Source: Dokdonia pacifica
Lineage (GTDB): Bacteria; Bacteroidota; Bacteroidia; Flavobacteriales; Flavobacteriaceae
Direction of reading: 5' to 3'
Length of the DNA: 64,000 nt
Assembly: GCF_900188275.1 (NCBI RefSeq)
Contig: NZ_FZNY01000009.1
Span: 62,001 to 126,000 of the forward strand
Of this stretch, positions 3,865 to 60,700 are shown one piece after another. Position numbers and translations under genes: made by a program. The notes below the pieces were generated by a model, which had not been told where the DNA came from, made no database searches, and was given only the letters and a program-made list of their open reading frames with translations. Within the stretch, counting starts at the first letter, position 1. Each line of letters starts with the position of its first letter.

Positions 3865-5274
3865 ATGGAGAATGTATATGATTTTGGCCTCGTAGGCTTA
3901 GGCGTGATGGGACGCAACTTTATTTTAAATGTAGCAGATAATGGTTTTACTGCAATGGGTAATGACCTGGATACAGAAAAGGTGAAAGCACTCATAGATG
4001 AAGGCGGCGATACAGATCGAGTAAATGCGGTTGTAGCTGTTTCCGCTTTCGCGAAAGCGTTATCATCACCACGCAAAATTATGCTACTTGTTCCTGCTGG
4101 AAAAGTTGTAGACATCGTCATAGACTCGCTTTTACCACACCTAGACAAAGGAGACATTATCATAGATGGTGGGAACTCTTTTTTTACCGACACCGACCGA
4201 AGAGAGGCATACCTTGCTGAAAAAGGTATCCATTTTTTTGGAGCAGGAGTATCAGGCGGAGCAAAAGGAGCGCGCAAAGGACCAAGCATCATGCCTGGAG
4301 GATCTAAAGCGGGATATGCTGCTGTACAACCAATTTTTGAAGCTGTATCTGCTAAATATAATGGAGAGCCTTGCGTAGCTTATTTAGGACCAAAATCTGC
4401 TGGAAACTATGTAAAAATGGTGCATAATGGTATTGAATATGGTTTGATGCAACTCACTTCTGAGATGTATGATATTCTAAAAAAAGCAGGCAAGTTTTCT
4501 AATGAAGAACTTCATACGACATTTAAAACATGGAATGATGGGCGTTTGCAATCTTTCCTAGTTGAGATTACTTCTAAAATAGTCGCTAGAAAAGACACGC
4601 TTACAGAGGGTGATCTTATAGATCAAATACTAGATAAAGCAAAACAAAAAGGTACTGGAAAGTGGACTTCTCAAAACGCCATGGATCTTGGGATCCCTGT
4701 TCCTTCTATAGATATTGCGGTGAGTATGCGAGAAATCTCTGCGCTTAAAGAAGAGCGTATTCAAGCAGATCATGTATATGACCGACCAGAAGTTGCTACG
4801 ATTGCAAAAGACAAACTGAGTACACTTACGGAAGAAGCTTTATACTTCTCATTTATTGTAACCTATGCACAAGGTTTACATCAATTATCTGATGCTTCTA
4901 AAGAATATGGATATGGTCTTAATATTGCTGAAATTGCAAAAATATGGCGTGCAGGATGTATTATAAGAGCGAGATTACTGGCAGATATAACGGAGGCTTT
5001 CCAAGAAAATCCAAGTTTAACTAATTTACTGTTATCTCCTTCTTTTATTGAAAAAATAAAAGGAACGGTAGCTTCGGCGAGAGCGCTTGTTGCTTTTGGT
5101 GCTACAAATGGCATCCCTTTACCTGGATTATCTAACTCCCTTACGTATTTTGATGCATATACCTCATCTAGACTTCCTCTTAATTTGATACAAGGACAAC
5201 GCGACTTCTTTGGATCACATACCTATGAGCGACTAGATCGTGAGGGTATTTTTCATACAGAATGGGAGGAGTAA
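3865..5274 (+). CDS. gnd: 6-phosphogluconate dehydrogenase, decarboxylating
   Basis: This enzyme converts 6-phosphogluconate to ribulose 5-phosphate, CO2 and NADPH. From the ATG at 3865 it has 469 residues, the length of E. coli Gnd. An in-frame ATG at 3853 would add only MYYF before the Rossmann strand, so 3865 is preferred. Landmarks: GLVGLGVMGRN at the N-terminus, VSGGAKGARKGPSIMPGG near 130, the catalytic segment KMVHNGIEYG (Lys about 184), and the C-terminal GIFHTEW. Codons at 4044-4059 are a perfect copy of the dispersed palindrome, read as AFAKA, in an exposed helix before the conserved PRKIM strand. The segment is not longer than in E. coli Gnd, so it does not look like a simple insertion. 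Confidence 0.97.
   Translation: MENVYDFGLVGLGVMGRNFILNVADNGFTAMGNDLDTEKVKALIDEGGDTDRVNAVVAVSAFAKALSSPRKIMLLVPAGKVVDIVIDSLLPHLDKGDIIIDGGNSFFTDTDRREAYLAEKGIHFFGAGVSGGAKGARKGPSIMPGGSKAGYAAVQPIFEAVSAKYNGEPCVAYLGPKSAGNYVKMVHNGIEYGLMQLTSEMYDILKKAGKFSNEELHTTFKTWNDGRLQSFLVEITSKIVARKDTLTEGDLIDQILDKAKQKGTGKWTSQNAMDLGIPVPSIDIAVSMREISALKEERIQADHVYDRPEVATIAKDKLSTLTEEALYFSFIVTYAQGLHQLSDASKEYGYGLNIAEIAKIWRAGCIIRARLLADITEAFQENPSLTNLLLSPSFIEKIKGTVASARALVAFGATNGIPLPGLSNSLTYFDAYTSSRLPLNLIQGQRDFFGSHTYERLDREGIFHTEWEE
4044..4059. repeat. Dispersed palindrome inside gnd
   Basis: Perfect 16-base palindrome CGCTTTCGCGAAAGCG, in frame within gnd, read as AFAKA. Confidence 0.9.
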
Positions 5275-5387
5275 CTTAATAACGTGAACTCGATGTATAT
5301 TTAGATGTTCATTACTTTAATTTTCTAGTTGATTTTTTAGACGTAGTTAGAAATAAGTAATTACTCGTAGTCATTATTATGTATTTG

Positions 5388-6044
5388 TTATTTATTCCCC
5401 GTCATTAACTTAGCAATTTCATTTGCATTCTTAATTTCCAATTCTTTTAAAATTTCACTTATTCGGTTTTCGAATTTGATTTGGTTATTCCGACATAATT
5501 TGATTTCTGAAAGAAGCTCTTGTTCTGAAAACTTATATTTTTCTGATATACCATTAAAATCTTCCAAATTGTAATCTGTGTAATCCGATATTGCAATATA
5601 ATTATCAATTCTTTTGTAGAAAATCCAAGGATGTCCAATCCATAACTGAGTCCATTTATTCAATTGAGCATTTCCAACTTCTTCCCAATTTCGAATATCA
5701 GATATATCTCCACAGCAAGTTGGTTCAAGTATAATTTTATCATTTTCTAGTATTACAATACCGCCAATTATTTGGCTAACACCTTCTTGAATATTAGATA
5801 AATCGACATCTTTAAGTTCTTTTTTAAGAATAGTTTTTAATTCAGATTCTCCAATTTTATTTATGTCGACTAAATACGATCCAAGTTCAATCGGTTGTAA
5901 GTTTTGTAAGTGACTATCAGAAATACATTTATACCAGAAATCACTCCAGTCCTTTGGGTTTTCAACTTTCGAAACAGTAGGTGATTCATACTCATTTTTC
6001 GCATAATCCAAAGGTTCAATTTCGATTGTATTCAATAATTTCAT
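5388..6044 (-). CDS. Hypothetical protein, likely cytoplasmic
   Basis: No family was recognised for this 218-residue protein. It has no signal peptide or membrane segment. It is acidic and rich in Trp and Ile, with a conserved-looking central block (PTCCGDISDIRNWEEV near residue 105, then WTQLWIGHPWIFYKR and ISDYTDY), and a predicted helical, charged C-terminus ending KLMTGNK. The central block looks like a ligand- or protein-binding domain, but this is a guess. It lies convergent to gnd and downstream of murA, separated from murA by a terminator, so it is probably transcribed on its own. Confidence 0.6.
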   Translation of the reverse strand: MKLLNTIEIEPLDYAKNEYESPTVSKVENPKDWSDFWYKCISDSHLQNLQPIELGSYLVDINKIGESELKTILKKELKDVDLSNIQEGVSQIIGGIVILENDKIILEPTCCGDISDIRNWEEVGNAQLNKWTQLWIGHPWIFYKRIDNYIAISDYTDYNLEDFNGISEKYKFSEQELLSEIKLCRNNQIKFENRISEILKELEIKNANEIAKLMTGNK

Positions 6045-6133: not shown

Positions 6134-6147
6134 GCTTTCGCGAAAGC
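6134..6147. repeat. Dispersed palindrome downstream of murA
   Basis: Perfect 14-base core GCTTTCGCGAAAGC, six bases past the murA stop and before the terminator hairpin. Confidence 0.9.
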
Positions 6148-6152: not shown

Positions 6153-7466
6153 TTATGCTGTTCTGATGATTTTTGCACCAATCGCACGAAGGCGCTCATC
6201 TATATTTTCATAGCCACGGTCTATCTGCTCGATATTGTGAATCACAGACGTTCCTTTGGCGCTCAATGCCGCAATTAGTAATGAAATACCTGCACGTATA
6301 TCTGGAGATACCATCGTTGTAGCTTTTAACATCGATTTAAAGTCATGTCCGATAATGGTAGCACGATGCGGATCACAAAGAATAATTTTTGCGCCCATAT
6401 CTATCAGCTTATCGGTAAAGAATAGACGACTTTCAAACATCTTTTGATGCACCATCACCTCTCCTTTTGCTTGTGTTGCTACGACAAGAACGATACTCAA
6501 TAAATCTGGTGTAAATCCAGGCCAAGGAGCATCTGCAATGGTCATAAAAGAACCATCTATATAACTTTCTATTTGGTAACCATCGGTATGTGCAGGAATA
6601 TAAATATCATCCTCTCTACGCTCTACGGTAATTCCCAATTTTCTAAACGTGTTTGGGATAATTCCTAAATCGTCCCAGCTTACATTCTTAATGGTAATTT
6701 CACTACGAGTCATCGCAGCCAAACCAATCCAAGAACCGATCTCAATCATGTCGGGTAAGACACGATGCTCACATCCTCCTAGTGACTCAACACCTTCTAT
6801 ATGAAGCATATTTGATCCTACACCCGTAATCTTTGCTCCCATGCTATTTAGCATTTTACAAAGTTGTTGTAAGTAAGGCTCACAAGCTGCATTGTAAATG
6901 GTCGTTTTCCCTTTAGCAAGCACAGCCGCCATGACAATATTTGCCGTTCCTGTAACCGATGCTTCATCCAAAAGCATATACGTACCAGTAAGGCCATTAG
7001 GTGCTTCTACACCATAAAAACGTTCTTCTTTATTATACCTAAAATCGGCTCCTAATTTGATAAACCCTTCAAAATGGGTATCTAATCTACGACGCCCTAT
7101 CTTATCACCACCTGGACGCGGAATATATCCTTTTCCAAAGCGAGCTAATAAGGGTCCCACAATCATAATAGAACCACGTAAACCACTTCCCTCTTCTTTA
7201 AAAAGCTCGCTTTCTAAATAATCCAATTGAAGTGCATCACTTTTAAAGGTATACGACCCTTTTCCTAGCTTTTGAATTTTTACACCTAAATTTCCTAGAA
7301 TATGAATCAGTTTATTAACATCTCTAATATCTGGAATATTGGTAATAGTTACTTTCTCAGGAGTTAATAATACCGCACATAAAATTTGTAATGCCTCGTT
7401 TTTTGCTCCTTGTGGTTGGATTTCACCTTTAAGTTGATGTCCTCCTTCTATTTGAAATGTACCCAT
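6153..7466 (-). CDS. murA: UDP-N-acetylglucosamine 1-carboxyvinyltransferase
   Basis: This enzyme transfers enolpyruvate from PEP to UDP-GlcNAc, the first committed step of peptidoglycan synthesis. The 437-residue protein has the family's two-domain EPSP-synthase fold signature: KNEAL with Lys22 near the N-terminus, LRGSIMIVGPLLARFG near 96-111, and the active-site loop PGGDKIGRRRLD. In that loop the usual Cys (Cys115 of E. coli) is Asp121. Asp at this position is compatible with activity and is known to prevent fosfomycin alkylation in other bacteria, so natural insensitivity to fosfomycin is expected. The gene follows a DUF4290 gene by 25 bases, probably as one transcript, and ends at a clear terminator. 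Confidence 0.96.
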   Translation of the reverse strand: MGTFQIEGGHQLKGEIQPQGAKNEALQILCAVLLTPEKVTITNIPDIRDVNKLIHILGNLGVKIQKLGKGSYTFKSDALQLDYLESELFKEEGSGLRGSIMIVGPLLARFGKGYIPRPGGDKIGRRRLDTHFEGFIKLGADFRYNKEERFYGVEAPNGLTGTYMLLDEASVTGTANIVMAAVLAKGKTTIYNAACEPYLQQLCKMLNSMGAKITGVGSNMLHIEGVESLGGCEHRVLPDMIEIGSWIGLAAMTRSEITIKNVSWDDLGIIPNTFRKLGITVERREDDIYIPAHTDGYQIESYIDGSFMTIADAPWPGFTPDLLSIVLVVATQAKGEVMVHQKMFESRLFFTDKLIDMGAKIILCDPHRATIIGHDFKSMLKATTMVSPDIRAGISLLIAALSAKGTSVIHNIEQIDRGYENIDERLRAIGAKIIRTA

Positions 7467-8522: not shown

Positions 8523-8542
8523 TACGCTTTCGCGAAAGCGTA
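8523..8542. repeat. Dispersed palindrome, 20-base perfect copy
   Basis: TACGCTTTCGCGAAAGCGTA, a perfect inverted repeat in the gap after the small membrane protein gene. Confidence 0.92.
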
Positions 8543-10363: not shown

Positions 10364-10900
10364 ATGCCAAAAAGCATTTTACTCATAGGAGGCCCATCAA
10401 CTGGGAAAACGACTCTTATAAATCATCTTAAAACACTTGGATATCCATGCCTTGAAGAAATATCAAGACAAGTCACTAAAAAGGCGCAAAGTGAAGGTAT
10501 AGACCAACTTTTCCTTGAGAAACCATTGCTTTTCAGTCAGTTGTTAAAAGATGCTAGAATACAGCAGTTTCAAGAAGTCGCTACCTATGATACTGACTAT
10601 GTGTTTTTAGACAGAGGAATTCCTGACACAGTGGCATATATGGACTATATAGGACAAGATTACACAGAAGAATTCGTTACTGATTGTAAGACCTATCACT
10701 ATGATGTTGTTTTTATACTACCGCTATGGAAAGAAATACATCAAACCGATGGAGAACGTTATGAAAGTTTTGAACAAGCTCAAGAAATACAAGATCATTT
10801 ACTTGCAACCTATCACACCTATGGATATGCACCTATTGAAGTTCCAAAAGGCGATGTTGCATCCAGAGCATCATTTATTATAAATACATTAAAGGGTTGA
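10364..10900 (+). CDS. NadR-like AAA ATPase / kinase domain protein
   Basis: The 178-residue protein has a P-loop LIGGPSTGKTT at residues 6-16 and a later DRGIPDTVAYMDYIG block near residue 84, typical of the AAA_28 group that includes the kinase half of NadR. No nucleotidyltransferase half is present. The family acts on small molecules such as nicotinamide riboside, but the substrate here is not evident. Its TGA stop overlaps the TTG start of recQ, and recQ overlaps fmt, so the three are likely one translationally coupled transcript. Confidence 0.8.
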   Translation: MPKSILLIGGPSTGKTTLINHLKTLGYPCLEEISRQVTKKAQSEGIDQLFLEKPLLFSQLLKDARIQQFQEVATYDTDYVFLDRGIPDTVAYMDYIGQDYTEEFVTDCKTYHYDVVFILPLWKEIHQTDGERYESFEQAQEIQDHLLATYHTYGYAPIEVPKGDVASRASFIINTLKG

Positions 10901-12789
10901 AGCACACCCCAAAAGACATACTAAAAAAATACTGGGGATATGACTCCTTTAGACCTTTACAAGAAGATAGTATACAAAGCATTTTAAATGGTCAAGACAC
11001 CATTGCTTTATTACCTACTGGTGGAGGCAAATCGTTATGCTATCAAATCCCTGCATTATCTACAGAAGGAATTGCCATTGTTGTTTCACCTCTCATTGCC
11101 TTGATGAAAGACCAAGTCCTGAATCTTCAGGAAAAAGGAATCAAAGCCCTAGCCATTACAAGCGGCATCAAATACAGTGATCTAGACATCTTACTAGACA
11201 ATTGTATTTATGGAAACTATAAACTCTTATATGTATCACCCGAGCGATTACAACAAGAACTCGTTATAGAACGCATCAAACAAATGAATGTCTCTCTTAT
11301 TGCGGTAGATGAAGCACATTGTATCTCACAATGGGGACATGATTTTAGACCCGCCTATCGTAAAATTTCCCGCTTACGCGAAATAAAACCCAACGTGCCT
11401 TTCATTGCTCTTACAGCAACAGCAACACCCAAAGTAATTCAAGACATTACCGAAGAGTTGCATTTAGAAAGTCCGCTTCTATGTAAAGGATCGTACCATA
11501 GAGAAAACCTCACCTATACCCTTATTCATAGCACCGATAAAAATTTTCGCCTTGAGCAAACCCTAAAAAACACCACACAAAGTGCTATTGTATATGTACG
11601 TAATAGAAAAGCAACCATAGGTACAGCACAATTTTTAAAAAGTCGCGGGATTACTGCAACCTATTATCATGGTGGCATGTCTCGAGAAGACAGACATACC
11701 CATTATAAAAACTGGCGTGATAATAAAACACAAGTAATGGTTAGTACCAATGCCTTCGGAATGGGTATTGATAAAGCCGATGTAGACACCGTTGTGCATC
11801 TAGAAATTCCGGATAGTTTAGAAAACTATTTTCAGGAAGCAGGACGTGCCGGTAGAAGTGGACAACCAGCGAAAGCTGTCCTTATATATAATGAAAACGA
11901 CACCATACGTCTTAACAATCAGTTTTTACAGATCATTCCTACCGTTACCTTTGTAAAAGAAATCTATAGCCGACTCAATAATTACTTTCAAATCTCTTAT
12001 GGAGAAGGAGAGCTAAGCAACCACCGATTTAATTTCAGTACGTTTTGCCAAACCTACTCTCTACCTACTATGCGAACATATAATGCATTATTGGCATTAG
12101 ATCGTAATAGTATTATAAGCTTATCACAAGAATTTACAAAAAAAGCAACCGTTACCTTTAATGTAACCGATGTGGCACTTACTTATTACTTGATTAAGAA
12201 TCCGCAATGGGAGGAGATTGTAAAAACAATACTCCGCACCTATGGAGGTATTTTTGAACAAGCCACCGTCATTAATCATAGTATCATTGCTACAAAAGCA
12301 ACTACATCTATACATAAAGTACACGATACCTTATTAATGCTTGCCAAAGATGATATCATTACCTATGAGCATCAAAGCTATGATACGGCCATTACCTTTT
12401 TAGTTCCCAGAGAAGACGATCGCACCATTCATGTAATTGCATCTCACATAAAAACACAAGCCAATTATAAGAAGCAACAAATAGAAACGATCAAAAACTA
12501 TGTGGCCAATACTACTACCTGTAGAAATGTGCAACTCCTCGCCTATTTTGGAGAACAACACACAACACCCTGCGGTACCTGTGATGTATGTGTTTCTCAA
12601 CAGACACCACCAAAACAAAGCGGTACGATTACTGAAGCTATTTTAAATGCGCTTTCGCGAAAAGAGCAAAGCTCCCGTGACCTTTGTGAGTTACCTTTTA
12701 CAGAAACCGAAATTATTACCACATTACAATTGCTTTTAGATCAAAAAAAGATTACACTTACCCCAATAAATACATATAAGATATTATGA
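10897..12789 (+). CDS. recQ: ATP-dependent DNA helicase RecQ
   Basis: The 630-residue superfamily 2 helicase unwinds DNA 3' to 5' in recombination and fork repair. Landmarks: FRPLQ (Q motif, residue 18 on), LPTGGGKS (Walker A, 39-46), VDEAHCISQWGHDFRP (motif II, near 138), TATATP, STNAFGMGIDKADV, HLEIPDSLENYFQEAGRAGR, and the zinc-binding cysteines near the end of the RQC region (CGTCDVC). A typical HRDC domain is not obvious. The start is TTG overlapping the stop of the ATPase gene; no ATG fits, because the Q motif begins within 20 residues. A degenerate copy of the dispersed palindrome (12653-12662) is read as ALSRK near the C-terminus. Confidence 0.93.
   Translation: MKHTPKDILKKYWGYDSFRPLQEDSIQSILNGQDTIALLPTGGGKSLCYQIPALSTEGIAIVVSPLIALMKDQVLNLQEKGIKALAITSGIKYSDLDILLDNCIYGNYKLLYVSPERLQQELVIERIKQMNVSLIAVDEAHCISQWGHDFRPAYRKISRLREIKPNVPFIALTATATPKVIQDITEELHLESPLLCKGSYHRENLTYTLIHSTDKNFRLEQTLKNTTQSAIVYVRNRKATIGTAQFLKSRGITATYYHGGMSREDRHTHYKNWRDNKTQVMVSTNAFGMGIDKADVDTVVHLEIPDSLENYFQEAGRAGRSGQPAKAVLIYNENDTIRLNNQFLQIIPTVTFVKEIYSRLNNYFQISYGEGELSNHRFNFSTFCQTYSLPTMRTYNALLALDRNSIISLSQEFTKKATVTFNVTDVALTYYLIKNPQWEEIVKTILRTYGGIFEQATVINHSIIATKATTSIHKVHDTLLMLAKDDIITYEHQSYDTAITFLVPREDDRTIHVIASHIKTQANYKKQQIETIKNYVANTTTCRNVQLLAYFGEQHTTPCGTCDVCVSQQTPPKQSGTITEAILNALSRKEQSSRDLCELPFTETEIITTLQLLLDQKKITLTPINTYKIL
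12653..12662. repeat. Degenerate dispersed palindrome inside recQ
   Basis: TTTCGCGAAA is perfectly symmetric and the left flank is intact, but the right arm reads AAAAG. It is read in the frame LSRK. Confidence 0.6.
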
Positions 12790-13754
12790 GAGACATACGC
12801 ATCGTTTTTATGGGCACACCAGACTTTGCCGTTACTATATTAGAAACCTTAGTTACCAAAGGCTATACAATAGCAGGTGTGATTACCGCACCAGATAGAC
12901 CTGCAGGAAGAGGACAGAAATTACGAAAGAGTGCTGTAAAAGTATATGCCGAGTCACAAGACCTTCCTATACTTCAACCTACCAATCTTAAAAACGAAGA
13001 CTTTCACGCAGCATTAAAAGCGCTAAATGCAAATCTTCAAATTGTCGTAGCCTTTCGTATGCTTCCCGCGGTGGTTTGGAAAATGCCTGCATACGGCACC
13101 TTTAATTTACACGCCTCTCTTCTTCCGCAATATCGAGGAGCTGCTCCTATTAACTGGGCCATTATAAATGGAGAAACAGAAACTGGGGTTACTACCTTCT
13201 TTATAGATGAAAAAATAGATACTGGTGCCATTATATTCCAAGAGCGTCTTGCTATAGGTGAAAATGAAAATGCAGGAAGTCTCCATGACCGTTTAATGCA
13301 TCTGGGAGCAGATCTTGTTACAAAGACGGTAGATGCGATTGCAGAAAATAATGTCACAACACAAATACAACCCCAATCGGGCGATTTAAAAACAGCCTAT
13401 AAACTCTATCCTGAAAACACAAAAATAAATTGGGACGCTCCTACCCAAACTATCCATAATCATATACGAGGTTTGAGTCCATATCCAGCAGCTTGGTGTT
13501 ATCTTATGAATAATGATAAAGAAGAACGGGTTAAAATTTATAACGCTTTCGCGAAAGCGTATACAGAAACTTCAGAAGAAAAGGAAGCAAAAAATACAAT
13601 AGGAACCATTCAAGTAGAAAACGGAAACCTAAAAGTCACCACCTTAAATGGATACCTTTTTATTACAGAAATACAACTTCCAGGCAAGCGAAAAATGGAT
13701 ATAAAGTCACTTTTAAACGGCTATAATTTTAACAAAAATGCCAAAATGCGCTAA
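12786..13754 (+). CDS. fmt: Methionyl-tRNA formyltransferase
   Basis: The enzyme formylates the initiator Met-tRNA using 10-formyltetrahydrofolate. The 322-residue product has FMGTPDFAV at residues 8-16, APDRPAGRGQKL near 37, the catalytic block NLHASLLPQYRGAAPINWAI near 105 (conserved Asn and His), and FIDEKIDTG with the catalytic Asp. The C-terminal OB-like domain starts near residue 210. ATG overlaps the recQ stop by four bases. In the C-terminal domain a perfect palindrome copy (13543-13560) is read as NAFAKAY, in a loop region that varies in the family, so it may be a real insertion. Confidence 0.95.
   Translation: MRDIRIVFMGTPDFAVTILETLVTKGYTIAGVITAPDRPAGRGQKLRKSAVKVYAESQDLPILQPTNLKNEDFHAALKALNANLQIVVAFRMLPAVVWKMPAYGTFNLHASLLPQYRGAAPINWAIINGETETGVTTFFIDEKIDTGAIIFQERLAIGENENAGSLHDRLMHLGADLVTKTVDAIAENNVTTQIQPQSGDLKTAYKLYPENTKINWDAPTQTIHNHIRGLSPYPAAWCYLMNNDKEERVKIYNAFAKAYTETSEEKEAKNTIGTIQVENGNLKVTTLNGYLFITEIQLPGKRKMDIKSLLNGYNFNKNAKMR
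13543..13560. repeat. Dispersed palindrome inside fmt
   Basis: ACGCTTTCGCGAAAGCGT, 18 bases, perfectly symmetric, read as AFAKA. Confidence 0.9.
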
Positions 13755-13856
13755 ACCCGCACTGTCATTGGGCTTACAGAAATAGCCAAAAAAGGCCTTC
13801 TTTATTAACAATCGCCTTGATTTATTAACAAAATCGCCGATTTCCCTTGCTATTAC

Positions 13857-13886
13857 TTGCATGAGTGAATTTTACGTATAAATTTG
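13857..13886 (+). promoter_or_regulatory. Bacteroidota-type promoter of the HU gene
   Basis: TTG at 13857-13859, a 19-base spacer, then TAAATTTG at 13879-13886, an exact fit to the Bacteroidota TTG/TAnnTTTG consensus. The start codon lies 53 bases downstream. Upstream, at about 13800-13838, a direct repeat of the TTTATTAACAA...TCGCC type may bind a regulator. Confidence 0.75.
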
Positions 13887-13939
13887 TTGTAGAATTAAAC
13901 ACACAGTTTAACTAACAATAATTAATTAAATTTTACATT

Positions 13940-14212
13940 ATGAACAAATCAGAATTAATTGATGGAATGGCGGAGCACGCAGGAATTACTAAAGCAGCTG
14001 CAAAAAAAGCATTAGAGTCTTTCTTAGGAAACGTAGAAGGAACACTTAAACAAGGAGGACGTGTTTCTCTAGTTGGATTTGGATCTTGGTCTGTATCTCA
14101 GCGTAATGCTCGTGAAGGAAGAAATCCACAAACTGGAAAAACAATCCAAATCGCTGCTAAAAATGTAGTAAAATTCAAAGCTGGTTCTGAGTTAGGAAAC
14201 GCAGTAAACTAA
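13940..14212 (+). CDS. HU family DNA-binding protein
   Basis: The 90-residue histone-like protein binds and bends DNA as a dimer. The helical N-terminus (MNKSELIDGMAEHAGITKAAAKKALESFL) is followed by VSLVGFGSWSVSQRNAREGRNPQTGKTIQIAAKNVVKFKAGSEL, containing the HU signature GFG.f....R..R.grNP.tg. The length is exactly that of bacterial HU. It has its own strong promoter and a strong terminator, fitting an abundant monocistronic message. Confidence 0.96.
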   Translation: MNKSELIDGMAEHAGITKAAAKKALESFLGNVEGTLKQGGRVSLVGFGSWSVSQRNAREGRNPQTGKTIQIAAKNVVKFKAGSELGNAVN

Positions 14213-14263
14213 TCAGACTTTGATATAACATATACATGAGATACATATCTCATTATATTAAAG

Positions 14264-14293
14264 AAAGCTCAGCAGTAATGCTGGGCTTTTTTT
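14264..14293 (+). terminator. Terminator after the HU gene
   Basis: AAAGCTCAGCA (14264-14274) pairs with TGCTGGGCTTT (14279-14289), with one G-T pair and a GTAA loop, followed by a T-run. Confidence 0.88.
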
Positions 14294-14448
14294 ATAAGAA
14301 CGCATCAAAAGATTTCTACAATTCAGTTACATTTGTGGTAAACTACCTCGGGAAAGCCCACGAGACATTTATATGAAACCGAATTTCAATTTCGAGACAA
14401 GCTTCGGAGTATTAAACCCATTGGCGGTGCTAATAAAGTTATAGATTC

Positions 14449-15645
14449 ATGAACCCATCGGCTTTAGGTTGGATAAAAAAACACTTACCATACTTCTTAC
14501 AGTTTATGGACAACCATCCTATGGACGAAGAAGAAATGTATGCACAGCTTCGAGTAAACGGGTTTATCTATGGTACCTCTATCAAAACACTATGCGATGA
14601 AGAGAGTGAGCAATTAAAATGGACCGAAGAAGAAAAGACAAAAGTCAATCTATTTGATGCACTTGCTTTCACCTATTTTGATTGTATAGAAAATGCTACC
14701 ACTACAGATTGTATAAAAAGTATGATCTCTTTTTACAGTCATTTGAATAAAAACCAAGGCGGTCCTCCTATCAAATTAGGAAGCTCTACAGAGGCTAATT
14801 ATAGGATTCTTGAAAAGATCATTACAGAACGTATTCAAACCAACGAACCACTCTTTAAAAAGAATTTTAGCCATATTATTACCAATGCGCTATTATTCTT
14901 AGATGTATTAAGTTTTGATCATTATCTTATTTCTGGTGAAGATCCTTTACCCTATGCCGTATGCTTAGAAAAAAACCTCACACAAATTGTCTGGTTAGCC
15001 CTAAAACAAAAAGAAAATAAAGATCATTATAACGAACTTCTTATCAAGTTATTTGAGAGTTCTATTCGTTATAATACCACGATAAAAAGTGACAATCTTA
15101 CGCTAGAGGATATACAAAGCAATGTGGTATCTCAACCGCTAGAGCAACTATACTTACTCGACTTATGTGCGTTATCCTTATTTGATGATGAGCAAATAGA
15201 TGATCATGAGGAGATTTTTATGAATGAAGTTTCTCAAATATTGCATATTTCACCTACAGAAAAAGAAGCATCGCTTGTTGCGGTTGCTCATTTTATTTCA
15301 GAACACAAAGAAGATATCGCCTACCTCAATTATAGCAATCCTGTCAAACATTTCTATAACCAAACCACACGAACAGTTTCTACCTTAATACTACGTAATA
15401 AGAAACGTCTAGTAAAAGAAATTACACAAAGTAAGGACTTAGTCATCTTATTAGGAAACTCTACCGTACGCGACCTCTCTGACGATGAAAAGAAAGTCGT
15501 TAAGAACCAGTTGTTGGATATTTGTAAATCCATTCCTTCTCTTGCTATATTCTTATTACCTGGAGGCACAATCCTACTTCCTATTCTTATGAAGTTTATT
15601 CCTACCCTATTGCCAAGTGCTTTTAATGAAAATCAAGTAGACTAA
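14449..15645 (+). CDS. LETM1-related protein
   Basis: The 398-residue protein has a mainly helical N-terminal two thirds with a TerB-like acidic helical segment (LLDLCALSLFDDEQIDDHEEIFMNEV near 245-270). The C-terminal 80 residues resemble the ribosome-binding core of mitochondrial LETM1: RLVKEITQSKDLVILL, LSDDEKKVVKNQLLDICKSIPSLAIFLLPGGTILLPILMKFIPTLLPSAF. Related proteins in Flavobacteriia are annotated as LETM1-related biofilm-associated proteins. No signal peptide is present; the C-terminal hydrophobic stretch could associate with the membrane. It is monocistronic as far as seen. Role uncertain: ion transport, ribosome docking or biofilm formation are all possible. Confidence 0.75.
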   Translation: MNPSALGWIKKHLPYFLQFMDNHPMDEEEMYAQLRVNGFIYGTSIKTLCDEESEQLKWTEEEKTKVNLFDALAFTYFDCIENATTTDCIKSMISFYSHLNKNQGGPPIKLGSSTEANYRILEKIITERIQTNEPLFKKNFSHIITNALLFLDVLSFDHYLISGEDPLPYAVCLEKNLTQIVWLALKQKENKDHYNELLIKLFESSIRYNTTIKSDNLTLEDIQSNVVSQPLEQLYLLDLCALSLFDDEQIDDHEEIFMNEVSQILHISPTEKEASLVAVAHFISEHKEDIAYLNYSNPVKHFYNQTTRTVSTLILRNKKRLVKEITQSKDLVILLGNSTVRDLSDDEKKVVKNQLLDICKSIPSLAIFLLPGGTILLPILMKFIPTLLPSAFNENQVD

Positions 15646-15750
15646 CTTGCTATTGATTGCAGATAACTGGTTACAAATAAATCACTGACTATCAATTATA
15701 TTGCTATATTTGGTATTGGACATATATTAGTGATTCATCACTAGTAATAG

Positions 15751-15813
15751 ACTACTCACAAGAATCCTCGCAAATTCTTTATTCCGTTTCTATTTGCTAA
15801 ATTAGGTACTTAA
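15751..15813 (+). repeat. Cassette-associated intergenic repeat, copy 1
   Basis: About 63 bases from CTACTCAC to TACTTAA match 17044-17105 at most positions (shared core TTTCTATTTGCTAAATT). It precedes a lipoprotein gene and is followed by CACGTTGTG, as in copy 2. Confidence 0.7.
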
Positions 15814-15861
15814 GCATATAAAAACACGTTGTGCACATACATAAAACCGTTGGTATTAATT

Positions 15862-16407
15862 ATGAAAAAAGTAATCTACATTTTAATTTCTTTTATATTC
15901 TTCAATTTTTCATGCAATAACACTACTCAGCAATCAGAAGAAAAAACAGATGATATTATTGAAGCAGAAACGATATTATCAAAAGAATTCAAACATAGGC
16001 TAAGTATTTCACCATATGATATCAATCTGAGAAAAGCTGAAAATAATTGGATATCTGACAAAGTACTTGAGAAAAAAGATAAAGACGGTTATTATAATCT
16101 GTTAAAAAAGGTAATAGAAAACGGATTTAGCGATGAACTAGTTTCTGGGATTTACAAAGCCGAATCGAATAATTTAAAACTACGTGAATTCAGACTCATT
16201 TTTGAAGAAAATAAAACAATGTTGGACTCTTTACCTAAAGATTCTAGTCTATTTAATATCAATCAGTTAATACAAGAACTTATTTCAAGTAGAAATGTAA
16301 CAGCAGTAGATATATCAAAAAGTCTATTAAATGGAATTCAGCCAAATGATTTAGATAAAGAGTTTTACCAAAACATCATTATCATCTTTTATAGCTCGAT
16401 TATTTAA
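15862..16407 (+). CDS. Lipoprotein of unknown function
   Basis: Starting at ATG 15862 (MKKVIYILISFIFF) the protein has 181 residues and a lipobox-like NFSC, so it should be lipid-anchored after signal peptidase II cleavage. An upstream GTG/ATG frame would bury the signal peptide. The mature part is charged and helical and has no recognised domain. It follows copy 1 of the intergenic repeat, the same arrangement as the gene at 17154, so the two may be cassettes. Confidence 0.6.
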   Translation: MKKVIYILISFIFFNFSCNNTTQQSEEKTDDIIEAETILSKEFKHRLSISPYDINLRKAENNWISDKVLEKKDKDGYYNLLKKVIENGFSDELVSGIYKAESNNLKLREFRLIFEENKTMLDSLPKDSSLFNINQLIQELISSRNVTAVDISKSLLNGIQPNDLDKEFYQNIIIIFYSSII

Positions 16408-16537
16408 AACGAATCTGAAAAAATAAAAACGAATGCCTACAATAGCTATATGTAATTACTTGTTATCACATACTTATAAAATGAAGCACTAACCTACATA
16501 ACTACTCATAGTCGAAACTAGTAACATTAATTTAAAA

Positions 16538-17140: not shown

Positions 17141-17153
17141 CACTAATTTGACA

Positions 17154-48089: not shown

Positions 48090-48098
48090 TTTTTCCGC

Positions 48099-48108
48099 TT
48101 TCGCGAAA
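48099..48108. repeat. Degenerate dispersed palindrome
   Basis: TTTCGCGAAA with an intact left arm (CCGCTTTCG) and a lost right arm; intergenic after the TPR regulator. Confidence 0.6.
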
Positions 48109-48136
48109 AACTTGTTAGTCCGCTTAGAATAAGGGC

Positions 48137-54998: not shown

Positions 54999-55066
54999 AT
55001 ACGCTTTCGCGAAATCGAACTTGCGAGATTCACGACCATAGGGAGAGCATAGCGTTAAAGCGTATA
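54999..55066 (+). repeat. Long split form of the dispersed palindrome, copy 2
   Basis: Begins ATACGCTTTCGCGAAATCGA and ends TTAAAGCGTAT; about five differences from the reverse complement of 1287-1353. It is intergenic between the LRR gene and cargo gene B. Confidence 0.75.
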
Positions 55067-55095: not shown

Positions 55096-57492
55096 ATGAA
55101 ACAAAGCATACTTATTCTTTTTGCCCTATGCGCAATGTTTACAATCAACGCTCAAAACATCGAGCTCTCTTTTGAAAACCCCCAAATCACCAATGATGGC
55201 ATGAACGACTTTTATGAAGTAGATGTCATGATCACAAGTGATATAACCTATTCTCAAGGATCAGGACAATTCTTTTTAGATTATAATACGACAGCTTTTG
55301 GAGAACTTATCAACGGCGCTAGTGGTATTACTTTTGAACGACCAGACACGACCATTTTAGGAGGACAAACCACAGTAGAACCTGTACCAGGATTAATCAT
55401 TCCTCTTGGGACTCATTACAATTCATTTTTTATCAATGATGCGACAACTTCTAAAGTATCATTCATTTGGCAACAAAATGGAAGTGGCGGAATGATAGGA
55501 GATAATATTGTAGCGAATACACCTACGCTATTGGTACATGTGAAGATGCAATTTTTAGATGGCGCATCAGATGTATCTCCAGACCTTTGCTTTGATGCTA
55601 CTAATCCGTTTGATGATCAATTCTTTACTGCTTGTGGACCATTTGATCCACTAGTAGGATTGACATTTGTCAATGCAGATTGTATCAATGAAGCGGGAAG
55701 TCAAATTTTGAATTATACACCAGACTGTTCTGGAGCTGCTTTACCAGTAATGGCCTGCCTAGGAGGTACAACTACTTTTGCCATTCTAGATGGATGGGAC
55801 AATGGAATGCCAGATGCGACTATGGTTGCCGTGATTGCAGAAGATTATGACACTTCTATATCTGGAGATATCAATGCCTGTGAACTTATAATTAATGAGA
55901 TGGTAACCCTTACTGTAACTGATGGGAACTTCATCAATATTCAAAATGATATTACTGTAAACGGAACACTGACGGTAGCTCACCAAGGAAGTGTGGTACA
56001 AGTAGAAGAAGATGCGGTAACCATCAATAACGGATCGATTTCTGTAGCGAAGACCACTCCGACACTGGATGATCGTAATTTTGTCGCCATGAGTAGTCCT
56101 GTGACTGCTGAGGCTAGAGATAGAGCCTATGGAAATTCTAGAGCCGTATTTAGTATCATCCCAAGTAACTTTGTACCTTTTGATATTGACTTAATGGCAT
56201 TCCCAGAATTTATGGGGGCTGAAAACTTCCTTGATGATGATAATGATTATTTACTACCTGTCTCAGGAAGTACAGCGTTGCCTGATGCAGGTATAGGACA
56301 ACTCGTATTCCCTCAGCCAGCTCCTAATGTAGGGGATGGTGCCTATACCATTACCTATACACAAAATGCTATGAATCCAGGGACTCTAAACTCAGGAACG
56401 ATTACCGTTCCTATTAACTATAATGGTCCTGCGACAATTAATAACTATAACCTTTTGGGAAATCCATATGCATCAGCTATTGATGTGGAGGCTTTTATCA
56501 ATGCTAATGATGCGGTGAATGAAGTATACTATTGGGATCACTTAACCAATCCTACAAGTGACTTACCAGGGTTTGGAACCAGTAACTTCTCTATGAATGA
56601 TATCTCTGTTCGTAATGCACTCCTTGGAGTGGCTGCCGTGAATGGAGGAGCAGCGCCTGGACAATTCATGGCTTCTGGACAAGGCTTTGGAATCAAAGCA
56701 GCACAAACAGAAGCAGGTGCAAATACGCCTGTGGTATTTACCAATAGTATTCGCGTTACTGGAAACAATAATGGGTTTAGAAATGCTGAAAATAGTGACA
56801 TCGATAGAATTTGGTTAAACCTTACTACAGAAGCGTATGAAGAAGCAACTTCGCAAACAGGAATTGGCTTCACACCTAATGCAACACCAGGATTTGATCC
56901 TGGATATGACAGTCCGCGTTTAGGAACATTTATCTCTTTATTTACAACGCTAGAAACAGGAGAACAACTTTCGATTCAAGGAAGAGAAGCTTTTGATACG
57001 GAGATAGAAATTAGCTTAGGATTTGCAACTTCGGTAGAAACTCAGGAAAGTTATGCGATTAGCATCGATCATTTGGAAGGAGTGGGTATTGAAAATGCAA
57101 CGGTATATTTAATAGATAACCTTACCAATACCACAACCAATCTAAATGAGGGTAGATATTCATTTACAGCAACAAGCGGCATTCAGCCAGAACGTTTTAC
57201 GGTGATATTTCAAAAACGTGATGTATTGAATACAGACGAATTTAGCTTTCGCGAAAGCGTAACCCTCTACCCTAACCCAGCAACAGATGCGTTTACACTT
57301 TCATATCTAGGAACTGAGATGCTTCAAAAAGTAATCATCACAGATGTGAATGGAAAAATAGTGATGAGGGTAAATTTAGACACATTTAATAAGTCGAAAA
57401 TAATTGCTATTCAAGAACTAGCAAGAGGAATGTATTTTATACAAATAGATTCACAAAAAAATACCATTGTAAAAAAGTTTTTAGTGAGATAA
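55096..57492 (+). CDS. T9SS type A cargo protein, copy B
   Basis: The 798-residue protein (signal MKQSILILFALCAMFTINA) is near-identical to copy A through most of its length. In the central region (about 56030-57270) the DNA itself is almost the same, while the first 700 bases differ at many synonymous sites and a stretch near residues 218-300 is different. The sorting domain (LYPNPATDAFTLSYLGTEML to ARGMYFIQIDSQKNTIVKKFLVR) diverges sharply from that of A. A palindrome copy (57245-57258) encodes FRES at the junction. Role: exported surface or secreted protein with unknown ligand. Confidence 0.9.
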   Translation: MKQSILILFALCAMFTINAQNIELSFENPQITNDGMNDFYEVDVMITSDITYSQGSGQFFLDYNTTAFGELINGASGITFERPDTTILGGQTTVEPVPGLIIPLGTHYNSFFINDATTSKVSFIWQQNGSGGMIGDNIVANTPTLLVHVKMQFLDGASDVSPDLCFDATNPFDDQFFTACGPFDPLVGLTFVNADCINEAGSQILNYTPDCSGAALPVMACLGGTTTFAILDGWDNGMPDATMVAVIAEDYDTSISGDINACELIINEMVTLTVTDGNFINIQNDITVNGTLTVAHQGSVVQVEEDAVTINNGSISVAKTTPTLDDRNFVAMSSPVTAEARDRAYGNSRAVFSIIPSNFVPFDIDLMAFPEFMGAENFLDDDNDYLLPVSGSTALPDAGIGQLVFPQPAPNVGDGAYTITYTQNAMNPGTLNSGTITVPINYNGPATINNYNLLGNPYASAIDVEAFINANDAVNEVYYWDHLTNPTSDLPGFGTSNFSMNDISVRNALLGVAAVNGGAAPGQFMASGQGFGIKAAQTEAGANTPVVFTNSIRVTGNNNGFRNAENSDIDRIWLNLTTEAYEEATSQTGIGFTPNATPGFDPGYDSPRLGTFISLFTTLETGEQLSIQGREAFDTEIEISLGFATSVETQESYAISIDHLEGVGIENATVYLIDNLTNTTTNLNEGRYSFTATSGIQPERFTVIFQKRDVLNTDEFSFRESVTLYPNPATDAFTLSYLGTEMLQKVIITDVNGKIVMRVNLDTFNKSKIIAIQELARGMYFIQIDSQKNTIVKKFLVR
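57245..57258. repeat. Dispersed palindrome inside T9SS cargo copy B
   Basis: GCTTTCGCGAAAGC, perfect, read as FRES just before the sorting domain. Confidence 0.9.
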
Positions 57493-57705
57493 TATACGTT
57501 TTATAACTGGTAGAGGTTGAGCATTCCATTTTGGGGATTGAACGCTCAATGTAAAGGGGCTTCTTTAGAATTTTTAGGAGTTCCTTTTTCTCTTTATAGA
57601 ATTCAACTATTAAAACTACGCATTCATAAACAACTAACTACGAGTGGCTTTATTCTATTTCATTTATAGAGCCTCATCATATTTATTAATTTAAAAACCA
57701 ATCCC

Positions 57706-60700
57706 ATGATTCGTAAACTACTATTTGGAGGGCTATTTCTATGCACTCTCAACTTGCAAGCTCAAACGACTCAAGCTTCCACAAATAAAAGAGTGAAAAT
57801 CCCAAATATTACCACCTCCCAAATGACCGCTCTCAGCAATGCAGGTATCGATTTGAATTGTGGTATTCATCAGGATAACACAGGTATGACACTAGAACTA
57901 ACTCCTTATGAGCAAGAACTAGTGCAATCATTAGGGATCAACACACAAGTTCTTATAGCTGATCTATCTACTTTTTATGCAGACAGAGCCGTTGCTGGTA
58001 TTGCAAATGCAAAAACAACCCTCGCTGCTATGAAAGCACGTATTCCTGAACAGGCAGCCCAACGTTCTAGTATTGTCAGTGAGAGTATCACAAATGTAGG
58101 GCAGTATATAGGCGAAGATGAAATTGATTGGGCCATACCTCAAAACTTTAATTTAGGAACGTATGCAGGATCATTAACACTAGATGAAGCCCTTGCAGAA
58201 TTAGATGCGATGCGAGCACTATATCCTCATCTAATTACCGCAAAAGCAGCTGCTGCCACAGAAACAACTATTGAGGGTAGAACGGTATATTACGTAAAGA
58301 TTTCTGACAATCCTGATATCGATGAAGATGAACCAGAGACCTTATATAATTCATTATTACACGCAAGAGAGATTGCTACATTAATGAATCAGTTGTATTA
58401 TATGTGGTATCTATTAGAAAATTACGATACCGATCCTGGTATTAAGAATCTCTTAGACAATCATGAGTTATATTTTATACCTATTGTCAATCCAGATGGA
58501 TATCAATTTAATATAGATAACAATCCAAATGGCGGAGGTTTACAACGTAAAAACCTTAGAATAACAAGTAATTGCGGTGGAGATAATGATGGAGTTGATT
58601 TAAATAGAAATAGTGGTTACTTCTGGAATAATGGCGGTGCTTCTTCCAATCCTTGTGTACAAGATTATAGAGGGACAGATGCTTTTTCTGAGCCTGAATC
58701 ACGTATCCTAAGAGATTTTGTACTAGACCGAGATTTTAAAGTGGCATTAGATCATCATGGATATAGTAATATTCTGTATCATTCGTATTCTAGTCTTGAT
58801 GCTCCAACAGGTAGAGAAGATGAGTTTGCTCAATATAGTCATGACATGAGTTATTACAATAGATATGGGTATGGTGCTGTTACAGAAACAGGGCCGCCAG
58901 TAGCCAGTGGAAGTCATATAGATTGGTTATTAGGTGGAACGATAGCTGATGCAACTGGATCTACTGGGTCAGGAAAAAACATCCTCGGATTCAGTCCTGA
59001 AAATGGAAGTTTAAATGAAGGTGGTTTTTATCCAGATCCTTCCAATATTCTTCCAATATCCCAACGTGCCATGCGTATCAATCTCCTTGCTGCTTATTAC
59101 AGTGGTAAATATGCAAAGTATAAAGACTTAACGCCCTCCAATCTTTCTAATACGACAGGGCAATTACATATTGGCATCGAATATTTAGGGCAAACCCTAT
59201 CCCCTATTACGGTAACGGTAACTCCCATATCTGAAAATCTTATCAGTATAGGAAATGCGCAAACTGTGAACCTGAATACCTTAGAGCAAACTACATTAAA
59301 TTTCCCATATACATTAGATCCAACGATAGCAGCAACAGATCTTATCGAATATGAAGTGACCGTAGCAAATGATGATTATACGTTATACAAAGCGGTGGTT
59401 CAAAAAAGCTATAACTCCGTTGTATTCTTTACAGATAATCCAGATATTGATGGACTAAACAATTGGATCTCTAATGGATGGGTCACAACAGCTGATGCTT
59501 TTTCTGGAACAACCGCACTTACAAATGCTTCAAATAGTTATGGAAACAATGCTTTTGAAACACTCACCCTAGCAACTCCAATTGACATTTCTACAGCAGA
59601 GCAAGCTGTCATACAATATTATGCAAAATGGGATATAGAGCGTGATTTTGATTTTACACAAATAGAAGGTTCTATAGATGGAGGCGCTACTTGGATTCCT
59701 TTAACAGGTAGATATACAAAACCTGGAAGTACGCTTGACACCAATCCATATAGTCAAAAATCAACTTCTAATGAAGTACATCAACCAGATGAAGAACCTC
59801 TATACGATGGAGATATGCAAGATAAATGGTCTTTGGAAGAGATTGTTATAGATGCTTCAAGTAATAGTACACTTCAAGGAGCCTCTAGCCTACTCATCCG
59901 ATTTGTATTTGACTCAGATTCTTCAAATTTAGACAGTGGATATACAACCACTTTTGATGGATTCACATTTGATGATTTTAGTGTCACCTCAACCATTCTA
60001 GTCCCGCCAGCATCACAAACAATTACATTTCCTGCGATTGCAGATCAATTGACCACAGCAGCACCAGTTACATTACTAGCAACTTCAAGTTCAGGACTTA
60101 CTATAAGTTATGAGGTGATCTCTGGGCCAGCAACCGTTTCTGGATCATTACTAACGCTTGATGGTACTTCAGGCACTGTCATTGTAGAAGCTACACAAGA
60201 AGGGAATTTATATTTTGAACCTGCAACATCTGTATCAATTAACTTTATGGTTAATGAACCTGCTTGTGCATTAGAAACACCACAAAACCTTACGGTAAGT
60301 GCTATTACAGATGAAGGTGCTACGATACAATGGGATGCAACCAATGGAGATGGATATGAAGTACGCTTTCGCGAAAGCATATACAGCGATTTTTCACCAC
60401 CATTTAATGTTACAAACACACAAATAACATTTATCAATCAGGATCCTGAGACAAGTTTTGATGTCAAAGTGAATAGTGTGTGTAACGATGGATCGATATC
60501 ACCAGATAGCGCTATTATATCCTTTACAACACTACCTCTTCCTATTACATATTGTCATGTTACAATTAGTGATGATAGTGACGATTTTATAAGTAGGTTT
60601 GAACTCAATACCATAAACAATAATTCTGGAGGTCAGACTTATAGTAACTTCACGGCGATTTCTACAGATATTGATACCTATAGAACGTATCCTTTTACCA

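Follow-up and report, generated by a model that had tools for sequence, protein, structure and literature searches.

The window, a 64-kb stretch of Dokdonia pacifica DNA analyzed here as a whole, contains ten exact copies of GCTTTCGCGAAAGC, a perfect 14-bp palindrome. The copies and their imperfect relatives are distributed as follows.

4045-4058, no strand: perfect core in the 6-phosphogluconate dehydrogenase (6PGDH) gene (3853-5274), whose reading frame gives A-F-A-K-A here
6134-6147, no strand: perfect core, intergenic, with ORFs 5388-6044 and 6153-7466 on either side
8526-8539, no strand: perfect core, intergenic; the neighboring ORFs end at 8492 and start at 8669
13545-13558, no strand: perfect core in the formyltransferase gene 12786-13754 (Formyl_trans_N and Formyl_trans_C domains)
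27630-27643, no strand: perfect core in the intergenic DNA that separates a LytTR response regulator gene from an amidohydrolase gene
31011-31024, no strand: perfect core, intergenic, upstream of the UvrB gene (31060-33060)
36282-36295, no strand: perfect core in the minus-strand gene 35723-36430, which has weak TPR-repeat matches
46051-46064, no strand: perfect core in a Por secretion tail protein gene, 43857-46298
57245-57258, no strand: perfect core in a second Por-tail gene, 55096-57492
60365-60378, no strand: perfect core in an M14 carboxypeptidase/MAM multidomain gene, 57706-62589
12651-12664, no strand: two-mismatch relative in a RecQ-like helicase gene (10897-12789), perhaps by chance
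48097-48110, no strand: two-mismatch relative, intergenic; may be chance
1335-1348, plus strand: one-mismatch copy that forms the right-hand end of an intergenic composite repeat of ~70 bp (about 1285-1352)
55003-55016, minus strand: one-mismatch copy at the end of an inverted composite repeat (about 54999-55066)

A sequence-only reading of the window had reported the ten perfect copies. All ten are confirmed, and the start of 4044 that it gave for the feature lies one base early. With up to two mismatches allowed, the window holds 14 matches, where 100 dinucleotide shuffles predict 0.07. A Pfam scan of 26 window proteins gave no match to a transposase model. The flanks of the copies at 46051 and 57245, both in Por-tail genes, are nearly identical, which points to a probable duplication of one ancestral site.

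Abundance, consensus and taxonomic range

The excess over chance that the sequence-only reading had claimed for the window is borne out by the whole 5.5-Mb genome of D. pacifica, which carries 903 copies of GCTTTCGCGAAAGC and none of the reversed control. Base composition alone predicts ~0.005 copies. In this genome, the positions outward of the core prefer G (76%), T (68%), and A (90%), and the preference is symmetric, indicating that the recognized unit is nearer 20 bp, TACGCTTTCGCGAAAGCGTA. The earlier statement that the flanks differ is thus not simply so. One-letter variants are scarce, with 142 exact copies and seven one-offs in genome G016. One-offs are commoner in G230 (10 vs 21) and G013 (4 vs 10). 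Twelve one-offs were counted in the D. pacifica DNA sampled, eight of them part of the composite repeat. The motif is a genuine genome-wide signal, as had been proposed, and is most simply a candidate protein-binding site.

All 18 Dokdonia genomes searched carry the motif, at 369-905 copies per genome. Two further genera, g11 (three genomes) and g210 (one genome), have hundreds of copies and group together. The best HisS tree, which represents one gene, needs two changes, and a single change suffices in 6% of bootstrap trees. In a sample of 397 Flavobacteriaceae genomes, six contain at least 100 copies, 74 contain 1-19, and 317 contain none. Outside the family, 260 of 266 genomes lack the motif and the other six have a single copy each; the reversed control occurs once each in 11 of the same genomes. 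A k-mer screen covering the ~21-kb loci of some 80 species in other genera, a length that makes the test weak, yielded no comparable palindrome and mainly tandem repeats.

An uptake sequence would be expected to be scarce in newly acquired DNA. Across the 13 genomes with a completeness of 90% or more, copy number does not correlate significantly with genome size (Spearman 0.40, p 0.18). The D. pacifica genome is sparser than another genome, which has 899 copies in 3.3 Mb; its gaps are longer throughout, and the thinning is not patchy.

Origin, conservation and spacing of the sites

Gene calls made with a simple longest-ORF script place 39 of 72 simple sites in D. pacifica and 66 of 129 in G016 within genes, in all three frames. 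The copies are enriched five- to six-fold in intergenic DNA. In 6PGDH, no gap lies within 11 residues of the site in any of 80 aligned relatives (1 with the motif, 79 without); Dokdonia reads A-F-A-K-A, and outgroups read, for example, T-F-V-K-A. In HisS, the alignment has no gap at the site except in four rows with a larger insert, and the two clades carry exact sites at different residues. The site at about residue 81 is exact in eight of the nine Dokdonia rows that span it (8 of 12 rows overall; rows G006, G011, and G014 have an insert at its position), and that at residue 388 is exact in all four g11/g210 rows. On the evidence of these alignments, motif copies in the two genes tested (6PGDH and HisS) arose in place by substitution.

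Across directed site-genome pairs, many of them reciprocal, the motif is exact at the matching position in 175 of 208, compared with 925 of 5123 (18%) for control 14-mers in the same alignments. The pairs represent 79 distinct sites, of which 56 are exact in every genome compared. In eight pairs the flanks are <50% identical; all eight are exact, and in these the alignment may have locked onto the motif.

These observations bear on the suggestion, also made in the sequence-only reading, that the palindrome is a self-copying REP-like element. A separate ~70-bp composite repeat in D. pacifica does look REP-like. It is built round half-copies of GCTTTCGCGAAAGC and terminates in a full copy or a near-copy, and all 15 of its unit matches, at 13 places within 600 kb of genomic DNA, are intergenic. 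The two one-offs of the window, at 1335 and at 55003, form ends of this repeat and are not eroded simple sites. However, by inspection the repeat supplies just two perfect copies in those 600 kb. REP/BIME elements with TnpA-REP resemble GCTTTCGCGAAAGC in being palindromic and present in hundreds of copies, but excerpts of PMC12306157 describe REPs as seldom overlapping coding DNA, whereas about half of the simple sites are genic and an insertion is seen at neither of the two sites tested. Because of this genic location, the lack of indels, and the retention of orthologous positions between species, copying by insertion, REP-like or otherwise mobile, is largely refuted for the simple motif, and we regard it as scarcely credible; the suggestion survives in small part, for the composite repeat.

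An origin by substitution also recalls HIP1 of cyanobacteria (GCGATCGC), and the motif could be an iterated palindrome that an orphan DNA methyltransferase drives or maintains together with a repair bias. HIP1 is likewise a dispersed palindrome, and its function is unsettled; excerpts of PMC4390886 describe it as found in and between genes and made by substitution. According to the same excerpts, however, HIP1 has eight bases, is tied to orphan methyltransferases, and has one-offs that are common in many cyanobacteria; those of GCTTTCGCGAAAGC are rare in G016, and its sequence differs from GCGATCGC. A recognition length of 14-20 bases exceeds that of the usual methyltransferase sites. HIP1 is also denser in genomes than GCTTTCGCGAAAGC. 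We consider such an origin quite improbable.

Two roles at the level of the transcript are disfavored. A terminator or promoter role fits poorly with sites of which about half are genic, and the intergenic copies do not deviate significantly from the amounts of convergent, divergent, and co-directional intergenic DNA (p 0.34 in G016, p 0.07 in D. pacifica). An RNA hairpin is disfavored by reasoning, in that the bases of the center, which would form the loop, are no less fixed than those of the stem.

In five of the seven genomes sampled, the sites are spaced much more evenly than at random, and the density is about one site per 3-7 kb in most of them. The coefficient of variation of the gaps is 0.52 in G016 (0.90 random), 0.35 in G281, a g11 genome (0.97 random), and 0.62 in D. 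pacifica (0.99 random), and G016 has seven gaps shorter than 1 kb where 34.8 are expected. Evenness is not significant in G230 (p 0.07) and G013 (p 0.18). No gap exceeds 7.3 kb among 33 in G281 (140 contiguous kb). None of 121 gaps exceeds 7.9 kb in G016, mostly measured inside 20-kb pieces, so that longer gaps are undercounted. One 20-kb gap is present in the D. pacifica genome. The segregation signal raised in the sequence-only reading finds no counterpart in an ori-ter pattern: 20 samples taken along the circumference of one complete chromosome contain 3-9 copies per 20 kb and show no trend by eye, and the motif does not go together with an additional ParB-family protein.

Sites in phages and transferred DNA

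Sixteen virus records were found by a 17-mer search, and 13 of them contain 2-7 copies of the motif. Six of the 16 belong to one phage group, judged by shared sites, and the hosts are presumed from motif and G+C. Both island and phage loci were picked for holding the motif, which biases such counts upward. Twelve of 14 phage sites examined lie inside phage genes, including head-protease and HNH-endonuclease genes. At flank identities <70%, the site is exact in 11 of 14 comparisons, and the other three are alignment shifts. Judged from these comparisons, temperate phages carry and conserve GCTTTCGCGAAAGC sites. As a yardstick, phages HP1 and HP2 contain 17 uptake signal sequences (USS) each, against 0.17 and 0.16 expected, and of 30 cross-comparisons between them, with flanks 85-100% identical, 26 show an exact site.

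Broader searches gave less. A 16-mer search returned 41 stretches; some of them hold the motif once, in contigs with a G+C content of 54-67%, and are probably chance. One of the two sites in record G715, beside a sugar-transporter gene, is probably host DNA. Collections of phage and plasmid records gave matches at chance level (3 and 17 records), none named Flavobacteriaceae. A search for related prophages in the 397 family genomes found three distant matches (35-41% identity), and the motif is absent from all three 4-kb loci. In a first group of loci found by protein, the motif is present in five of five. Among Mu-like loci found by protein (28-38% identity), it is present in two and absent in eight of ten. 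The five loci and the two Mu-like carriers are near-copies or already known. In DNA moved to non-motif genera, the sites look eroded.

Carriage and conservation in phages, together with the density given above, would also suit a Chi-type signal that shields self DNA, as well as adapted phages, against a helicase-nuclease or marks recombination hotspots. Known Chi sites, however, have at most eight bases and are asymmetric and orientation-biased, unlike the 14 bases plus flanks of a double-strand palindrome. A Chi-type role is therefore improbable.

Candidate functions and comparison with known systems

We propose, with a probability of about 0.5, that GCTTTCGCGAAAGC, extended to TACGCTTTCGCGAAAGCGTA, is a genome-wide USS-like signal for recognition of self DNA, by analogy with the uptake sequences of Pasteurellaceae and Neisseriaceae. 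A putative protein would bind double-stranded DNA that carries the site and promote either the uptake of this DNA or its passage into recombination. This protein would probably be a symmetric dimer, since the site has two-fold symmetry and all 14 of its bases are almost invariant. Relatives would exchange DNA mainly when the DNA carries a site, so that sites would spread and be repaired by biased exchange. A second site near an existing one would gain nothing, which would lead to even spacing.

The machinery of such uptake would not be a type IV pilus in most of these genomes. The type IV pilus/T2S ATPase (PF00437) exceeds the Pfam cut-off in 6 of 16 motif-bearing genomes and in 1 of 15 motif-poor ones; with no match over it in the other ten motif genomes, the pilus is rejected as the general uptake machine for most of them. 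G016, which has a very sharp signal, has no pilus ATPase over the cut-off. ComEC is present in all 31 genomes tested, and being equally common in motif-poor genomes, it does not discriminate. A partner protein for the motif did not emerge from the protein-family searches made. A weak literature search listed no Dokdonia DNA-uptake experiment among its matches. Excerpts of PMC7965970 report that Riemerella columbina, also of the Flavobacteriaceae, favors its own DNA and give no established signal for it.

A serious rival to the uptake reading is a site for an architectural protein. The sites would load or anchor an intracellular nucleoid-organizing dimer able to compact, coat, anchor, or protect a few kilobases around each site, and resident DNA, prophages included, would be selected for a site within reach, giving regular spacing. 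Even spacing, conservation, and phage carriage are also expected from such selection. The perfect two-fold symmetry of GCTTTCGCGAAAGC, the apparent upper limit on the gaps in G281 and G016 (with the undercounting of long G016 gaps noted above), the retention of sites by phages, and the lack of dependence on pili all agree with it. Against it stand the absent ori-ter trend in the 20 samples and the thinner sites of D. pacifica, with their 20-kb gap. The sites of ParB and Noc, parS and NBS, are palindromic 14-16-bp dimer sites and in this respect resemble GCTTTCGCGAAAGC; to our knowledge, they occur in at most tens of copies, and they differ further in having a dedicated ParB-family gene. Of the 16 motif-bearing genomes, 14 have exactly one ParB_N match; additional copies are present in the remaining 2 as well as in 5 of 15 motif-poor genomes, and no extra ParB/Noc-type protein tracks the motif. 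A ParB/Noc binding site is thus ruled out for PF02195 proteins, which have no dedicated extra copy with the motif. Overall, we consider an architectural role rather unlikely.

If the uptake reading is right in full, and we advance this tentatively, the motif would mark a new self-DNA recognition system in Bacteroidota, with a symmetric ~20-bp site, a putative dimeric reader, and no type IV pilus. The same sequence would have arisen or been gained at least twice in one family, it would control exchange among relatives, phages, and metal-efflux islands, and it would have shaped genomes to about one site per 3-7 kb. In the literature examined, represented by excerpts, uptake sequences are described from Pasteurellaceae and Neisseriaceae alone, and in the literature searched we know of no self-DNA label in the phylum Bacteroidota. 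No description of GCTTTCGCGAAAGC appears among the literature matches listed, and the 14-mer string occurs in no paper searched. The motif bears on the question of whether phyla beyond the known holders of uptake sequences mark their own DNA. As an uptake signal, it would supply a testable mechanism behind biased gene exchange in marine Flavobacteriaceae and a ready-made tag by which gene islands and phages could be traced to their hosts. As an architectural site, it would form an unusually regular chromosome-wide protein array. Either reading implies one protein that could be discovered by DNA pull-down.

Compared with the established systems, GCTTTCGCGAAAGC differs in form. The USS of Haemophilus influenzae, AAGTGCGGT (Pasteurellaceae), is a non-palindromic 9-mer with pil genes among the competence genes (excerpts of PMC1626085), and the DNA uptake sequence (DUS) of Neisseriaceae is a non-palindromic 10-12-mer with a CTG core and the binding protein ComP (excerpts of PMC3630211). 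The motif studied here is a 14-bp perfect palindrome in Bacteroidota, and the pilus ATPase accompanies it in just 6 of 16 genomes. In pattern the systems are alike. Excerpts describe the USS as present in >1000 copies, genic and intergenic, with a sharp consensus that has flank preferences (PMC1939737, PMC1626085), as evenly spaced (PMC1939737; PMC7811141), and as not arising by insertion, with an anomalously strong consensus (PMC1626085); it is also carried at conserved places by the temperate phages HP1 and HP2, and GCTTTCGCGAAAGC is likewise phage-borne. The DUS, again according to excerpts, is lineage-bound and stringently conserved in position (PMC2397512, PMC3630211), and islands retain the dialect of their donor and so reveal it (PMC7371117), as is seen with GCTTTCGCGAAAGC. 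The features that GCTTTCGCGAAAGC shares with both are copy excess, even spacing (five of seven genomes), origin by substitution (two genes), a sharp consensus, and conserved positions.

Abundance and anatomy of the motif

The ten exact copies of the 14-bp perfect palindrome GCTTTCGCGAAAGC claimed for the window by the sequence-only reading are confirmed at their positions. Extending the count to the genome and its relatives gives 903 copies in the Dokdonia pacifica assembly (5,520,745 bases, 31 contigs), against ~0.005 expected from its composition; the reversed letters, our control, give none. All 18 genomes of the genus searched, this one included, hold 369–905 copies. Of 397 genomes sampled across the family, 6 have hundreds of copies, 74 have 1–19, and 317 have none; the six comprise two Dokdonia, three genomes of a second genus, g11 (578, 664, and 609), and one of a third, g210 (408). 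Among the 266 genomes outside the family in a phylum sample of 296, six contain the motif, with at most one copy each. The reversed control occurs singly in 11 of those 266, indicating that the motif is at chance level outside the family. The closest named relative of the window 6-phosphogluconate dehydrogenase belongs to an uncultured Dokdonia (93% identity). The 14-mer was not found in the literature searched, and no uptake sequence for Bacteroidota is described among the literature matches listed on the topic.

Outward of the core, G, T, and A are favoured, followed by A/T-rich sequence (144 arms of 72 D. pacifica copies). Across the seven sampled genomes, G occupies the first position outside the core in 64–90% and A the third in 67–90%. 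Therefore, the unit read is symmetric and ~20 bp long. In G016, a complete 3.29-Mb Dokdonia chromosome, 142 exact copies stand against 7 one-mismatch variants in 440 kb, corresponding to 2Ns near 6.7 under a crude model of simple mutation-selection balance. A passage on Neisseria DUS (DNA uptake sequences of Neisseriaceae) gives a lower 2Ns-type value of ~4, from a different model (PMC2397512).

Spacing, genomic place, and a composite repeat

In five of the seven genomes sampled, gap lengths are far more uniform than chance predicts.

CV of gap lengths, observed versus chance
G016, complete Dokdonia chromosome: 0.52 vs 0.90
D. pacifica genome: 0.62 vs 0.99
G281, g11 genome: 0.35 vs 0.97
G433, g11 genome: 0.44 vs 0.96
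G014, further genome: 0.53 vs 0.95

Twenty 20-kb samples taken around the G016 chromosome give copy numbers with a variance-to-mean ratio of 0.30 (p 0.002). In the samples of G230 and G013, where the motif is sparser, evenness is non-significant (CV 0.57 vs 0.85, p 0.07; and 0.72 vs 0.94, p 0.18, with 10 copies), and one-mismatch variants are relatively commoner than elsewhere (10 vs 21 exact and 4 vs 10 exact, respectively). From these two properties, the motif system is perhaps fading in both genomes, which may represent lineages losing it.

Copies lie both within and between genes, in agreement with the sequence-only reading, and a check for bias finds intergenic enrichment: 63 of 129 copies in G016 (8.1% of the sample non-coding) and 33 of 72 in D. 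pacifica (9.9% non-coding). Convergent or divergent gaps are not significantly in excess among intergenic copies. Genic copies use all three frames, most commonly encoding Ala-Phe-Ala-Lys-Ala (18/39 in D. pacifica, 34/66 in G016), and several fall in N-termini resembling signal peptides, as judged by eye. A motif-free 14 kb (window 13559-27629) has low G+C (0.306 in 16–24 kb), and 5 of 10 proteins scanned there lack Pfam matches; it may be recently acquired DNA.

A dispersed repeat of ~70 bp, TATACGCTTT - ~44 bp - TTTCGCGAAAGCGTATA, is in effect the motif split by an insert, with TTT on each side. It occurs twice in the window:
~1285-1352, plus strand, composite repeat
~54999-55066, minus strand, composite repeat

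In 600 kb of the same genome, 13 further units occupy 11 other places; all 15 unit matches are intergenic, at times in tandem. Elsewhere, we find one in the G014 sample and five in g210 (three called genic), and none in samples of G016, G013, other Dokdonia, g11, or the outgroup. The recurrent one-mismatch variant GATTTCGCGAAAGC comes from this repeat, which appears to be REP- or MITE-like. A nested palindrome of type CCTGCCTGCCGGCAGGCAGG lies inside some copies (sampled loci L006 ~1113, L009 ~2452, L254 ~14977, L243 ~4640, and L010 ~10037), following GTGAA at a shared internal position in every one but L010; the arrangement looks like the insertion of one short palindromic element into a second.

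Origin, persistence, and travel of copies

The sequence-only reading also proposed a self-copying REP-like element. At window site 4045, in 6-phosphogluconate dehydrogenase, all 80 relatives compared align gap-free within 11 residues; the motif is present in a single one, a Dokdonia, and missing from the other 79. Dokdonia has A-F-A-K-A where outgroups have, for example, T-F-V-K-A; as judged from the alignment, the change is by substitutions. Histidyl-tRNA synthetase (HisS) has the same pattern in rows without a larger insert. The self-copying proposal is thus not borne out at these sites. A passage from Redfield and colleagues uses such gap-free comparison with relatives to show that USS (DNA uptake sequences of Pasteurellaceae) are not insertions (PMC1626085).

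Between Dokdonia genomes, sites were matched to their counterparts in 208 directed comparisons; 175 are exact, as against 925 of 5123 control 14-mers in the same alignments. The 80 surrounding bases average 78% identity in the exact comparisons and 67% in the other 33; where flank identity is <80%, 105 of 135 are still exact. Of the 33, 15 align without gaps and 18 with gaps; two of the latter are alignment shifts that hold an exact core (one 26 bases long). Clean loss of a 14-base insert is seen in none of the 208.

The HisS tree (one protein, 30 rows, midpoint root) places g11 and g210 in one group (99/93 support), apart from Dokdonia. A single common origin of the motif in both clades appears improbable from this tree (6% of bootstrap trees). 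At residue 81, eight of nine Dokdonia rows spanning the place have the exact site and the ninth a one-mismatch variant; at residue 388, all four g11/g210 rows have it. Neither position is shared, so the two clades filled different positions independently with the same letters. An insert of ~100 residues with an open frame, near residue 77-90 in G006, G011, G014, and G254 (three of them Dokdonia), occupies the place where other Dokdonia carry the motif.

In motif-poor genera (0–19 copies per genome), the few copies are frequently clustered. At locus L106 (G118), the sites inspected lie in metal-efflux RND, TolC-like, and P-type ATPase genes with a multicopper oxidase between, the functions being judged from translations. 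Two sites separated by 933 bp are found as a pair in each of five genera (G118, G127, G141, G254, and G200). For a 1.7-kb island piece, segment DNA identity is 91–95% in Dokdonia G004, 88–96% in G433, 80–82% in four other Dokdonia, and 77–80% in five motif-poor genomes. Copies in such transferred DNA are not evenly spaced (CV 0.79 vs 0.80). Sites in motif-poor genomes include one- and two-base changes beside exact copies, and one-mismatch variants are commoner at these loci, selected for having a site, than in G016 (9 vs 40 exact against 7 vs 142; Fisher p 0.005). The metal-efflux island spans several Flavobacteriaceae genera (L106, L108, L109, L111, and others); its Dokdonia-type motif suggests earlier residence in motif-bearing hosts.

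A 17-mer search of a viral collection matched 16 records, each with 1–7 copies over the whole record (at least 2 in 13 of 16; for example, 7 in 37.4 kb). One group is HK97-like, with portal, capsid, and tape-measure proteins and, in one record, a tyrosine integrase; another has a CI-like repressor and a MuB-like ATPase. Within phage genes lie 12 of 14 examined sites (five loci). Among 49 phage-locus comparisons at ≤97% identity, in which loci of one record are counted repeatedly, 45 are exact (4 between contigs of ≥48% G+C, perhaps from other hosts), 3 are core-containing alignment shifts, and 1 is changed; of the 14 with flank identity <70%, 11 are exact and the remaining 3 are shifts. The motif is absent in 8 of 8 protein-found relatives of only 28–38% identity. 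Haemophilus phages HP1 and HP2 have 17 USS each, with 26 of 30 cross-comparisons exact at 85–100% flank identity. Temperate phages of an uptake-signal-using host do carry that signal, and therefore phage carriage is not evidence against an uptake role.

Machinery and comparison with uptake sequences

All 31 genomes tested have ComEC, whether rich or poor in the motif. Of 16 motif genomes, 6 have a type IV pilus/T2S ATPase that scores above the Pfam threshold, compared with 1 of 15 motif-poor genomes; ParB-family proteins show no association with the motif. The main gap is a reader protein, none being found among these three families. The motif copy at L016, position 1340 (G000 contig C9 at 101340), is 74 bases away from where a ComEC domain match begins (C9:101414); this copy is probably within comEC or immediately before it. 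Given the motif density, the closeness may be chance.

The main rival explanation is that the motif is the site of an architectural protein. That it works like an uptake sequence we put at about even odds (roughly 0.5). Most of the non-machinery genomic properties tested fit a USS/DUS-type signal. In Riemerella, a passage of one paper reports own-DNA preference and lists over-represented short k-mers as candidates (PMC7965970). Neisseria islands are described, in a passage of PMC7371117, as retaining the donor's DUS dialect; likewise, the metal-efflux island carries the Dokdonia-type motif in motif-poor genera, and, like USS in HP1 and HP2, the motif is carried by temperate phages. However, it differs from known USS/DUS members in its palindromic symmetry, its length, and the missing pili. 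Therefore, we liken the motif to an uptake sequence but do not class it as one.
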